Shown piece after piece: positions 14,663-19,705 of a stretch of 64,000 nt of DNA. Made by a program: the position numbers and the translations under genes. The notes beneath the pieces are model-generated. The model was given only the letters and a program-made list of their open reading frames with translations, did no database searches and was not told the DNA's origin. Within the stretch, counting starts at the first letter, position 1. Each line of letters begins with the position of its first letter. This stretch comes from Bacillota bacterium (GTDB lineage Bacteria > Bacillota_I > Bacilli_A > RF39 > UBA660), in assembly GCA_015059335.1 (NCBI GenBank), contig SVAP01000001.1:194413-258412 (forward strand), read 5' to 3'.

Positions 14663-16639
14663 ATGAATAATAAATATATCGGATTAAATGATAATGAAGT
14701 ATTAAATAATCAAAAATTATATGGTAAGAACACATTAACTAATAATAATAAAAATAGTTACATAAAATTGATAATTCCTATAATATTATCATTAATAATA
14801 TGTGTAATACTATATTTAATTTTAAATAAAACAATATATGCAGTAATAATGATATTTATAAGTATATTAATTTTAATAATTCAAATATATAAACGTATTA
14901 AACTTTCCAAAATAATTGAAAATTTAAACAAATTTAAAAACAACATATGTAAAGTAATAAGGAACAATAAAGAATTAATAATTAATAGCGAAGATATAAC
15001 CATAAATGATATCATCCTTTTAAAAGAAGGAGATAAAGTGTGTGCTGATGCTATAATTTTAGAAAGTAATAATTTATATGTAGATGAGTCAAACTTAATA
15101 AAAGATAGAAATAGTATATTAAAAAGTTATGATTTACTAGATAAAGATGCACAATTAAAATCAAATTATATATATAAAGAGTCATTAATTATAAATGGTA
15201 GTGTAATTGCTAAAGTGGTTAATATAGGTAATAAAACATGGTTTGCTAAAAACAAGAGTGATATACCTAATAATGAAAATGAATTTAATTTACAAAAACG
15301 AATAAATAATCTTTATAGAATATTTACAATTATATCAATTATTATATTTGCAATTATAATAATAGTTTCAATATTTATAAATGATAATGTAATATATGGA
15401 TTAATATCAGGTATTACAATATCTATTGCCACTTTACCACTAATAACACCATTAACATATCTACTTTTAATTTATAATAACATATATACACTTACTAAAA
15501 ACAATGTGATAATAAAGAATATTTCAAGTTTAGATATAATTAGTAAAATAAAATGTCTATGTGTAGATAAATTTGGGATAATAACTGAAAATAAAATAGT
15601 AGTAAAAGAATTATACTCATCACTTGATAAAAATGATGCACTTGTACATTGTGCATTAGCATGTGATAAAAACACTAATGATTTATTTGAAAATGCAATA
15701 AATGAATATGTTAAAAATAATAATATTATAATAAATGATGAATATAAATTAGTGGAAAAGTATCCATTTAATAACAAAACAAAAATGATGGCTAATGTAT
15801 ATGAATACAATGGCGAATTATATATATTTGTAAAGGGTACATTAAATAGTTTATTTGATATTTGTGATTTAGATGTGGAAGAAAAATATAAATTGCATAA
15901 TTTTCAAAAGCAATTATTTCAACAAGGACTAGAAGTTATGGCATTTGGATCAAATAAAATTAAAAAAATTGAAAAAGATATTTTTAAATATAATATAAGC
16001 TTTGATGGGATAATAAGTTTATATAATTATCCAAAAGCTAATACAAAAGAAGCAACAGAAATATGTAAACAATTAGATATAAAATTAGTTGTGTTGTCAG
16101 AAGATAAAAAAGAAATAGCGGCACATATAGGAAAAGAAATTGGTATAAATAGTAGTACAATACTAAAAGGAAAAGAAATAGAAAATATGTCTGATTCTGA
16201 ATTATTAGATAAACTTAAAAACGTTAATATATTTTCTAGAATAAACTCCGATCATAAATTAAGAATACTTAAAACATTAAAACATAATTATGATATTGTT
16301 GCGATTACTGGTAATAAAGTAAATGATAGATTTATATTAAATGATGCAGATATTGGAATATCAATGAATAAATTTGGCACAGATGTTTCTAAAAATTTTT
16401 CAGATATAATAATATTAGATGATAATTTTTCAACTATTGTAAATACTATTAAAGAGGTTAGAAAAGTTTATGACAAATTTAAAAAAACAATAAATTATGT
16501 TCTAATAACGAATATATTACTAACATTATTATCAATATTTTTAGTTATTTTTAACCATAATATATTATTACCATTATATATAATTATAATAAAATTATTA
16601 TTAGAATTAGTGATTGGTGTAATTCTTACAAAAAATTAA
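14663..16639 (+). CDS. Degenerate P-type ATPase-like membrane protein
   Basis: The order of domains follows a P2-type cation ATPase: N-terminal cation-ATPase segment (GLNDNEVLNNQKLYGKN), two membrane hairpins, actuator domain, P/N domains and a further membrane pair. The signatures are eroded. The actuator TGES is missing (VDESNLIKDRNS). The phosphorylation motif DKTGT reads DKFGI near residue 302, keeping the Asp but not the TGT. The hinge TGDGVNDAP reads TGNKVNDRF near 548. Length is 658 against about 870 for the intact homologue at 23409, lacking the last four transmembrane helices. The frame is fully open, so it is kept, perhaps as a non-pumping regulator. Substrate cannot be inferred. 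Confidence 0.8.
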   Translation: MNNKYIGLNDNEVLNNQKLYGKNTLTNNNKNSYIKLIIPIILSLIICVILYLILNKTIYAVIMIFISILILIIQIYKRIKLSKIIENLNKFKNNICKVIRNNKELIINSEDITINDIILLKEGDKVCADAIILESNNLYVDESNLIKDRNSILKSYDLLDKDAQLKSNYIYKESLIINGSVIAKVVNIGNKTWFAKNKSDIPNNENEFNLQKRINNLYRIFTIISIIIFAIIIIVSIFINDNVIYGLISGITISIATLPLITPLTYLLLIYNNIYTLTKNNVIIKNISSLDIISKIKCLCVDKFGIITENKIVVKELYSSLDKNDALVHCALACDKNTNDLFENAINEYVKNNNIIINDEYKLVEKYPFNNKTKMMANVYEYNGELYIFVKGTLNSLFDICDLDVEEKYKLHNFQKQLFQQGLEVMAFGSNKIKKIEKDIFKYNISFDGIISLYNYPKANTKEATEICKQLDIKLVVLSEDKKEIAAHIGKEIGINSSTILKGKEIENMSDSELLDKLKNVNIFSRINSDHKLRILKTLKHNYDIVAITGNKVNDRFILNDADIGISMNKFGTDVSKNFSDIIILDDNFSTIVNTIKEVRKVYDKFKKTINYVLITNILLTLLSIFLVIFNHNILLPLYIIIIKLLLELVIGVILTKN

Positions 16640-16761: not shown

Positions 16762-17421
16762 ATGAAAGATGGTAGAAAGGTATTTTTCTCAACATTATTA
16801 AGTGTATTACTTATAATATCTAATATTGTTGCAATTAAAGTGACTGTTGTTGCGAAACTTCCATTATCTTGTAGTGTGTTTATTTACCCATTTACATATT
16901 TATGTACTGCATTAATTTCAGAATTATATGGTAATAAGGATGCGAGAAAGAGTATATTATACGCAATTATAATACAAATAATTGTATTACTTGCATATAT
17001 ACTTGTAACTAATGTTCCAAATCAAATTAATTCAATCGATAAAGCAAATGCATTACAAAAAGTATTAACACCATATGGAATCAATGGAAATTATTATCCT
17101 GAATTAAGACCTATAATTGCAACTCTAGTAGCATTCACTATTGGACATATTGTAAATGTTGGTTTATATTCATTTGCTAAAAAGAATACATTTAAATTAA
17201 TTGCTGTTGCGTTATCAGTAATTATTGGTATGATAGTTGATACATGTATTTATGTATTAATATCACAAATGGGAACTCTAGCTGGTAATGAATTAGTATT
17301 ACAATTAATAAACAGATTTGTTGTTAATGTTGTAGCTTCTGTTATTATCATTATATTATTTATGATATTTAGTATAAGGAAAAAAGAAGAAGTAAAAACC
17401 ACAAAAAAACAAAAAGGGTAG
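16762..17421 (+). CDS. Queuosine precursor transporter (YhhQ/VUT family)
   Basis: Starting at the ATG at 16762, 7 nt after AAGGAGG, the protein has 219 residues and about six hydrophobic helices. The family hallmark is YPFTYLCTALISELYGNKDARK, matching the FPLTYLxTDxxxExYGxKxAR pattern of YhhQ/VUT proteins, with a second conserved segment LVAFTIGHIVNVGLYSFAKK. These import queuosine precursors such as preQ0/preQ1 or queuine for tRNA modification. The C-terminus is a short Lys-rich tail. No queuosine biosynthesis gene is nearby, consistent with salvage. Confidence 0.85.
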   Translation: MKDGRKVFFSTLLSVLLIISNIVAIKVTVVAKLPLSCSVFIYPFTYLCTALISELYGNKDARKSILYAIIIQIIVLLAYILVTNVPNQINSIDKANALQKVLTPYGINGNYYPELRPIIATLVAFTIGHIVNVGLYSFAKKNTFKLIAVALSVIIGMIVDTCIYVLISQMGTLAGNELVLQLINRFVVNVVASVIIIILFMIFSIRKKEEVKTTKKQKG

Positions 17422-17445
17422 ACAAAGTGTCTATCCTTTTTTATT
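17415..17445. terminator. Bidirectional terminator between the transporter and oapA-like genes
   Basis: AGGGTAGACA and TGTCTATCCT (17415-17424, 17428-17437) pair with one G-U. T-runs on both strands fit the two convergent genes. Confidence 0.78.
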
Positions 17446-17988
17446 ATTTTGTTTAACAGGCCAAATATAATGAATAATTGTACCAGCTATATATATAATA
17501 TTAGTACATTTATTAATAGCAAACTTTTTACCAAGCGCCTTTCCTCCAACAGTTATAGAAGCAATTATTGCACTAATTAATAAGCTTACTACTATAATGT
17601 CCAAATTTAATTTAGAACTTATACTTACAGAAAGTAATGCACCTATTGATCCACTAATTATTCCACATATATCACCAATAACATCATTACAGATATTAGA
17701 AACCATTGGAGCATTACGAACTAATCTAATTGATTCTTTAGCACCTTTATGTTTTTTTGCTGCTTTAGCATGAAATGGTGCTTCAACTGCACTAGCTACA
17801 GCCATACCAACTAGGTCAAATACAATACCAATTCCTATAATTATAAAAAGAAGTATTGTAGCTATATATATATTAAGTTTATTAACTACAGTATTAGATA
17901 TTGCTCCAAATCCCATTGCTAATAAGAAAGTAACAATAAATACTTGCCATAACCAATTATCTTTTTTTTGTTTATTTGATTTTTTCAT
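17431..17988 (-). CDS. oapA: OapA-like membrane protein, partner of OLE RNA (DUF21/CorB-like)
   Basis: This 185-residue protein has four hydrophobic helices and the conserved core VFDLVGMAVASAVEAPFHAK, then KGAKESIRLVRNAPMVSNIC and NDVIGDICGIISGSIGALL. That pattern matches the small DUF21-type proteins often labelled CorB-like, whose characterised member is OLE-associated protein A. OapA binds OLE RNA and carries it to the membrane, where the complex affects responses to alcohols, cold and magnesium in Halalkalibacterium halodurans. Here it lies directly downstream, same strand, of a roughly 575-nt structured non-coding segment, the classic ole-oapA order. AAAGGAA precedes the ATG. Confidence 0.82.
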   Translation of the reverse strand: MKKSNKQKKDNWLWQVFIVTFLLAMGFGAISNTVVNKLNIYIATILLFIIIGIGIVFDLVGMAVASAVEAPFHAKAAKKHKGAKESIRLVRNAPMVSNICNDVIGDICGIISGSIGALLSVSISSKLNLDIIVVSLLISAIIASITVGGKALGKKFAINKCTNIIYIAGTIIHYIWPVKQNNKKG

Positions 17989-18012
17989 CTAATTTTCATT
18001 CCTTTATAATAT

Positions 18013-18037
18013 AAAAAAAACATGTATGGTAACACGT
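18013..18037 (-). terminator. Weak terminator at the 3' end of the OLE RNA
   Basis: On the minus strand ACGTGT, a TACCAT loop and ACATGT (one G-U pair) run into U8 (18020-18013). Readthrough would transcribe the oapA-like gene 25 nt further on. Confidence 0.65.
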
Positions 18038-18587
18038 TAAGTAAATTTTGCGGCTTAGGTCCAGTTGGATTTCCCTGACTTCTACTAAACGTTGCCATTT
18101 AGCGATTTCTCTTTGAAGAAGTCAACTACACGTCACCAATGTAGTTACTCGATTACCACTTAGTCCGCACCTCAATCCTTAAAGTGCCTGTTTCTCTTAA
18201 TACAACATTCTAGAGGTTTTCCCAAACAAAGTCTTAAACTAAGCTTATCCGTTTTTGCAAAGGTAATTTCGAAAATCCTTTATCATATCAGTTGGCCGAC
18301 CAATATAATAATCAATCATTTTATCCCTTAACTTCACTCACGGCAGGCTACATATATATAGTACTCTCTATATATATGGAAAATTACTATTTAGTAATGA
18401 GCAGAATATAAGGCAAACATCTATATGCCATTATAGCGTCACCGTATATTCATAAACTTGATAAAATCACCCCAACCTGGGCTGCTGAAGCAACAATACC
18501 AAGCGCGATTATGTGCCCTTTGATGGATTTTTAGGCCCACCTTCGTCATAGTAACTTTGACTAGAATAATGCACCACACATGAAACG
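18013..18587 (-). ncRNA. ole: OLE-type large structured non-coding RNA
   Basis: A stretch of about 600 bp has no coding frame yet is clearly less AT-rich than its surroundings and full of helices. Perfect examples are an 11-bp stem at 18351-18361/18368-18378, AACTACA at 18124-18130 with 18140-18146, GACTTCT at 18077-18083 with 18117-18123, and ATTACT at 18383-18388 with 18393-18398. It has its own consensus promoter and a U-run terminator. Size, strand and position immediately upstream of an OapA-like gene match OLE RNAs (about 600 nt). The identification rests on this context and structure; I could not align it to the covariance model. Confidence 0.78.
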
Positions 18588-18593
18588 TTTTTA

Positions 18594-18622
18594 ATTATAT
18601 CAAAAATAAGCAAAAAAGTCAA
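18594..18622 (-). promoter_or_regulatory. Strong promoter of the OLE RNA
   Basis: On minus: TTGACT (18622-18617), 17 bp, TATAAT (18599-18594). One of the best SigA matches in the window, fitting an abundant RNA. Confidence 0.78.
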
Positions 18623-18630
18623 ATTTGTGT

Positions 18631-19152
18631 CTAGTTTTCCAAAGCATCATACTCTTTTAATAACTCATTAAATATTTCCATATGTCTTTCTTCATCCATT
18701 ATAATTCTTCTTAATATATTTTTGATATTAGGGTCATTAGTTTCCTTGATTAGTTTATTATAATCCCTTATAGCAATAATTTCAGAATTTATATTAGATA
18801 GTAACATATCTCTATAATCAACTGTATAATCAATATTATCTGAATTCCATGGAATAGGTGTGTTTCTACAGTCATAGGTAACATAATATGGTGTAAGACC
18901 AAGTAATAAAATCAGTTTAGCAAGTATCTTTAAATGATACATTTCAACCATAGCTATTTGTTCTATTAAATTACTAAGATCTTTATATTCATTTAAATAA
19001 AAACTTTGGAAACTATACTGTGAAGTAGCAGTAAGCTCACTTATATTACCTGCGTATACATTTAACAATTTATAAGCTAAATCTAAATTCTTACCGGTAA
19101 CTTCTATTTTAGGATAAGGAGCATTAACTATAGGATTTAAAATTTCATTCAT
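18631..19152 (-). CDS. Rubrerythrin-like ferritin-fold protein
   Basis: The ATG at 19152 follows GGGGTGATT and gives 173 residues, a four-helix bundle with regularly spaced ligands: E39, E70-x-x-H73 (VEMYHL), E124 and E154-x-x-H157 (DEERHM). That set fits a dimetal (iron or manganese) centre of the rubrerythrin/ferritin-like superfamily. There is no rubredoxin domain. Likely roles are peroxide reduction or metal handling in the cytoplasm. The OLE RNA promoter lies directly after its stop codon, so some readthrough into ole is possible. Confidence 0.75.
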   Translation of the reverse strand: MNEILNPIVNAPYPKIEVTGKNLDLAYKLLNVYAGNISELTATSQYSFQSFYLNEYKDLSNLIEQIAMVEMYHLKILAKLILLLGLTPYYVTYDCRNTPIPWNSDNIDYTVDYRDMLLSNINSEIIAIRDYNKLIKETNDPNIKNILRRIIMDEERHMEIFNELLKEYDALEN

Positions 19153-19258
19153 ACTAATCACCCCATATATCATATGAATATTTTTAAAAATAATGCTACT
19201 TATTGCATTATTTTAAAAAATATGGTTTAATTTAATATGTAAATAAGGAGTGTGTGAT

Positions 19259-19705
19259 ATGTTTAAAGATATTTATAAAAGACTTGGAATACAAATATTA
19301 ATATATTTAATCATTATGTATTTAATTCCATGGATTTCGATAGAATTCTTTAGTGAAAGCATAAGAGACATAATAACAGCGTTATTTTTAGTAGTATTTA
19401 ATTTATTGATTATAATATTTGTATCAACAATAGATTCATTTAAATATAAATTAAATTTCTTTATGTGGATTATCCCAGGATTATTATTTTATCCAACAAT
19501 ACACTTATTCTATTCAAATGATTTATGGGTATATTCATTAATATATGTATTTAGTTATGGAATAGGTATGTTACTTGGATGGGCATATAAAACATATGGA
19601 TATCAATTAAAACCCGGATATAAAAAAATATATAAAGAAGAAAAGGAAAGAATGGAAAAAGAAAGAATTACAAATACAACTAAAAAGAAAAGTAAGAAAA
19701 AATAG
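19259..19705 (+). CDS. Small integral membrane protein, unknown
   Basis: The ATG at 19259, 8 nt after AAGGAG, gives 148 residues with four hydrophobic helices (about residues 9-30, 36-60, 66-88, 94-115) and a cytosolic tail that is strongly basic and charged (KKIYKEEKERMEKERI, then a Lys cluster). No family recognised. It is a monocistronic unit with its own terminator. Confidence 0.65.
   Translation: MFKDIYKRLGIQILIYLIIMYLIPWISIEFFSESIRDIITALFLVVFNLLIIIFVSTIDSFKYKLNFFMWIIPGLLFYPTIHLFYSNDLWVYSLIYVFSYGIGMLLGWAYKTYGYQLKPGYKKIYKEEKERMEKERITNTTKKKSKKK

Follow-up and report, generated by a model that had tools for sequence, protein, structure and literature searches.

To our knowledge, no biochemical role is known for the OLE RNA, which ranks among the largest conserved RNAs of bacteria and whose function has been unknown for two decades. 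In Halalkalibacterium, OLE serves adaptation to cold, alcohol, excess magnesium and poor carbon sources. In the cryo-EM structure of the OLE dimer, the A-rich loop of P4 forms homodimer bridge B1 and the palindromic P9 loop forms bridge B3 (PMC12286853). Two protein sites have been mapped elsewhere on the RNA: J4/5 holds the kink-turn strand for OapC (UC-NNU-GA), and the P13 region is the OapB site in Halalkalibacterium (PMC9723947). The membrane protein OapA has been remarked to be distantly related to MpfA, and the published anticorrelation between MpfA and OLE was computed leaving out species with variant OLEs. Such variants have been described from RF39 and TANB77, gut microbes with reduced genomes from which OapB and OapC are for the most part absent (Fernando and Breaker 2024, PMC11332333).

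Here we analyzed a 64-kb stretch of DNA, called the window throughout, from a genome of the family UBA660 in the order RF39. An earlier note on this sequence had proposed that an OLE RNA in such a genome would widen the range of OLE. Since RF39 OLEs had already been published (PMC11332333), the known range is not widened and the claim of a new range was dropped; the window locus is instead a genuine OLE copy and a well-confirmed example of a known RNA.

The window carries a full-length OLE RNA

Searching the window with the Rfam OLE covariance model (RF01071), which the earlier note had put forward as the check, returned an end-to-end match of 331.3 bits (E 1.2e-93, gathering cut-off 50 bits) that spans model positions 1–616. 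The features of the locus are:

18594–18622, minus strand: ole promoter (-35 TTGACT, 17-nt spacer, extended -10 TATAAT), adjoining the 5′ end of the OLE match
18010–18593, minus strand: ole, OLE RNA, 584 nt, as placed by the RF01071 covariance model
18013–18020, minus strand: U8 run at the 3′ end of ole, directly after the last helix
17431–17988, minus strand: oapA, 185-aa membrane protein with a predicted CNNM/CorC-type fold

The 584-nt match bears out both the OLE identity and the structured non-coding segment of ∼575 nt that had been read from the sequence. No other Rfam family reaches cut-off in the window, and this is the single OLE match in the window's own genome, which is 90% complete; the best OLEs of the family score higher, at 435–437 bits. 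The promoter, described before as a consensus one, matches 11 of 12 consensus bases, has a TG ahead of the -10 element and ends one base before the model match. It was the top-ranking promoter-like match within 17400–19300, a region in which such matches were overall no more frequent than chance would give (11 observed against 14.1). The proposed U8 terminator stands in part: eight U do follow the last helix, but a simple scan for terminators did not report one of the hairpin type at this position.

The downstream gene encodes OapA

The oapA frame starts at 17988, 21 nt beyond the end of the ole model match on the same strand. It is open, and its product is 77% and 70% identical to those of the two nearest OLE-bearing genomes. 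Against the window protein, neither Pfam nor NCBIfam yielded a model above cut-off; many of its relatives in the family reach Pfam CNNM (formerly DUF21, PF01595) weakly and some above cut-off, with a maximum of 38.6 bits. An AlphaFold2 model built with 23 sequences had a mean pLDDT of 86.5, and its comparison with the PDB placed the archaeal CNNM MtCorB at ranks 1–4 (probability 1.00) and a bacterial CNNM/CorC membrane domain at rank 6 (TM 0.53/0.61), with E-values that were weak throughout, the best being 4e-3. This predicted fold agrees with the published distant kinship between OapA and MpfA.

The window protein has the membrane-domain fold of the CNNM/CorC/MpfA magnesium exporters, as seen in MtCorB and bacterial CorC, but is without their CBS or C-terminal domains and resembles them weakly in sequence. 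With the OapAs of other OLE loci it has in common the adjacency to ole, the co-occurrence, the membrane helices and the sequence family, and it differs from OapA elsewhere in its length of 185 aa and in scoring, on sequence alone, under the cut-off of Pfam CNNM. The 185-aa protein is OapA, as judged from its conserved place next to ole, its near-perfect co-occurrence with OLE and a CNNM-type predicted fold; this is in line with the OapA/DUF21-type gene that the earlier note had placed directly downstream of the RNA.

The RNA retains the OLE core and the dimer-contact loops

The RNA is as rich in helices as had been claimed, with P4, P5, P6, a short P7, P8, a long P9 and P12–P13 all present. 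Its main elements are:

18559–18577, minus strand: conserved 5′ segment GUGGUGCAUUAUUCUAGUC, within the OLE match
18522–18541, minus strand: P4 hairpin with A-rich loop CUAAAAA
18504–18521, minus strand: J4/5, sequence CACAUAAUCGCG, without the kink-turn motif
18457–18503, minus strand: P5 hairpin, loop GCCCA at 18478–18482
18404–18451, minus strand: P6 hairpin, loop AAUGGCAU at 18425–18432
18383–18398, minus strand: P7 hairpin, shortened to 6 bp with a 4-nt loop
18351–18378, minus strand: P8 hairpin
18249–18343, minus strand: P9, long, with palindromic GGCC in its loop (18291–18298)
18084–18103, minus strand: P13 hairpin with a GCAA (GNRA) loop

The core nucleotides conserved across OLE are intact, and the homodimer contact sequences (L4 CUAAAAA, L5 GCCCA, L6 AAUGGCAU and palindromic L9.3 GGCC) are all present. 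Judged by its sequence, the window RNA thus retains the loops of the published dimer bridges and may well dimerize. The P9-loop palindromes change together across OLEs (GGCC, AGCU, GAUC), which we saw as well but set aside as a new argument for dimers, as it had been published by Kretsch et al. 2025 (PMC12286853); our P9-loop calls rest on inspection, automatic loop extraction being unreliable and some of its assignments wrong.

The core nucleotides, the P4–P9 domain, the 3′ domain, the dimer-contact loops and an oapA directly downstream are all common to the window and the RF01071 OLEs of Halalkalibacterium halodurans and Clostridium. The window RNA differs from these in being much more A+U-rich and in its shortened P7, and the window system differs from the H. 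halodurans-type complex in having no OapC kink-turn (J4a/5, J5/6) and no detected OapB or OapC. With the RF39/TANB77 variants (PMC11332333) the window has in common the order RF39, a reduced genome, OapA present and OapB/OapC missing. The window RNA matches neither named variant exactly: RF39 variant 2 lacks P7 and P8 entirely, whereas here P7 is short and P8 intact; TANB77 variant 1 has a shorter P7–P9 and often no OapB site, and here P7 is likewise short, but P9 is long and the P13 GNRA loop is retained.

ole and oapA occur together and are probably lost together

Across 193 sampled genomes of the family UBA660, OLE was found in 129 (212 of 385 at the order level) and is missing in about a third. 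OapA was likewise found in 129; both were present in 126 genomes and neither in 61, leaving six discordant (Fisher p 1e-42 over the 193 genomes, kinship ignored). In four of these six (G018, G085, G087 and G146) the locus is cut by contig ends, which leaves G034 and G150 as the two that look genuinely discordant. G034 (L148) carries an intact OLE with OapA not found, and G150 (L151) carries OapA with no OLE found nearby. In a second genome collection, 80 loci were reached by way of OapA, and 79 of them have an OLE upstream on the same strand. Loci L040 and L053 have identical OLE segments. One further genome, G025, has two OLEs; the one at a contig end (L036:5956-6424), degenerate in its 5′ segment and P4, may be a second copy in decay or a contaminant.

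In both the window and G162, the same pair of genes, Vut_1 and ferritin-like, flanks ole-oapA, an order also present in G178, where it is split across two contigs. In two sister genomes, G044 from the window's genus and G023 from the genus of G162, the Vut_1 and ferritin-like genes face one another and the whole ole-oapA unit is missing, not parts of it. The presence of the unit at a single site in two genera suggests that ole and oapA were lost jointly two or more times, with gain as the alternative.

Full-length CNNM (MpfA-like) proteins were found in 9 of 129 OLE-bearing versus 2 of 64 OLE-less family genomes (p 0.34). As they are rare both with and without OLE, an MpfA–OLE anticorrelation within the family was rejected, and OLE loss is unaccompanied by a gain of MpfA; the published idea that MpfA takes the place of OLE therefore fails to account for OLE loss here.

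Partner proteins and the kink-turn

No L7Ae/YbxF protein (the OapC family, PF01248) was found in 58 family genomes, the window's own included, while the B. subtilis positive control was matched. KOW proteins number two in the window's genome and in nearly all family genomes, with lengths that fit L24 and NusG; one genome has three, and a few have one or none. By these counts and lengths, rather than by an OapB query, the 58 genomes show no sign of a further KOW protein, and so no OapB is apparent. Because its own genome is 90% complete, the absence of OapB and OapC from the window's genome rests on the whole family. The recently proposed OLE partner bS21 is encoded in the window's genome, and 13 of the 15 genomes examined for it have it.

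The kink-turn strand C-NNU-GAA is absent from the window RNA. Of the long family OLEs whose P4 loop could be read, 29 of 36 carry it; none of five short ones and none of three mini-OLEs (described below) do. OapA led to 18 further OLE genomes, in which L7Ae accompanies the motif in 11 of 12 cases and is found in 1 of the 6 genomes without it (one-sided hypergeometric ∼0.004, kinship ignored), two of the six motif-less genomes (L053 and L108) being RF39 members already in the family set. These sequence patterns suggest that the L7Ae protein and the kink-turn site tend toward joint loss, as in the window's lineage. Most long RF39 OLEs (L002–L031) retain the kink-turn strand though L7Ae is absent from the 58 family genomes; for that reason, their kink-turn probably has a different use or is bound by something else.

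Size classes and a mini-OLE

OLEs of the family fall into classes of roughly 530–618, 464–519 and 378–381 nt. The short class (464–519 nt) retains the L4, L5 and L6 loops and mostly has no P9 palindrome. The smallest class, which we call mini-OLE, was found in three genomes of two genera (G106, G035 and G170), which are all the members of those genera sampled, so that no further mini-OLE was found in them:

L033:5669-6046: mini-OLE
L034:6016-6393, minus strand: mini-OLE
L035:6163-6543: mini-OLE

Mini-OLEs are without P5–P8 and the usual P9 tip, and retain the 5′ segment, the A-rich P4 loop and the 3′ domain; their shortened P9 bears a palindromic UGAUCA. In each of the three, TTGACA and a -10-like element lie exactly upstream of the RNA, and the ribosome-binding site of oapA follows it directly. 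The loss of P5–P8 removes the L5–L6 dimer bridge too. A form without P5–P8 was not found described in the main texts of the OLE articles surveyed. The chances are about even that the RF39 OLE has been pared down naturally to a functional heart made up of the 3′ domain, P4 and OapA; if so, a small core would be available for an RNA of long-unknown function. The lineage more broadly offers natural OLE–OapA systems missing OapB, OapC, the kink-turn, P5–P8 or the whole unit, gaps that help to tell the indispensable OLE core from its accessories.

A probable reduced OLE–OapA particle

The explanation that we favor, and consider very probable, is that the ole-oapA unit gives rise to a dimeric, membrane-bound OLE–OapA particle with a reduced set of partners that serves stress adaptation. 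A housekeeping-type promoter would start an OLE RNA of ∼580 nt, with the unit continuing into oapA. The RNA would fold into the OLE architecture with its homodimer contact sequences, dimerize by analogy with the cryo-EM dimers (PMC12286853), and bind OapA, a small membrane protein of predicted CNNM/CorC fold. By analogy with Halalkalibacterium, the resulting ribonucleoprotein would sit at the membrane and aid stress adaptation, operating without OapB, OapC and the OapC kink-turn. What the computation provides directly is the identity of the RNA, its promoter, the OapA relationship, the co-occurrence, the absence of the partner families and the loss of the kink-turn motif, while membrane localization, dimerization and a stress function in this uncultured lineage would carry over from other species.

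It is improbable that ole acts mainly in cis, as a leader regulating oapA, rather than in trans as a ribonucleoprotein. The common strand and the 21-nt spacing would suit a leader, as would the mini-OLE loci, in which the RNA runs into the oapA ribosome-binding site; however, OLE and OapA lie apart in some family genomes (on different contigs in G003, 0.5–3 kb apart in several others), and the Halalkalibacterium OLE works as a particle with OapA (PMC12265935). Marginally less probable still is that the window ole is a decaying remnant. Its lost kink-turn motif and shortened P7, the sister genomes without ole-oapA and the third of the family without OLE would all fit decay, but the core nucleotides, consensus promoter and dimer-contact loops are intact, oapA is open and conserved in the two nearest OLE-bearing genomes, and in the sister genomes the entire unit is absent and not pieces of it. 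That the segment is another large RNA or a chance structure can be dismissed, as RNase P, tmRNA and other Rfam families gave no match in the 64-kb window, ARAGORN found no tRNA or tmRNA there, and RF01071 had no match in 14 control genomes.

Neighboring genes

Immediately upstream of ole, on the same strand, lies a ferritin-like/manganese-catalase-like gene (18631–19173), the neighbor that is retained in G162 and in the OLE-less G044 and G023. The window also holds a 658-aa relative of P-type cation ATPases (14663–16639) with degenerate catalytic motifs: DKFGI stands for DKTGT and GNKVND for GDGVND, and TGES is absent. The syntenic ATPase in G023 (L143:1742-4249) has 835 aa and intact motifs; in G178, G162 and G044 the protein is again short and its motifs are degenerate. 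From these motifs, the short ATPases are likely a lineage of pseudo-enzymes.
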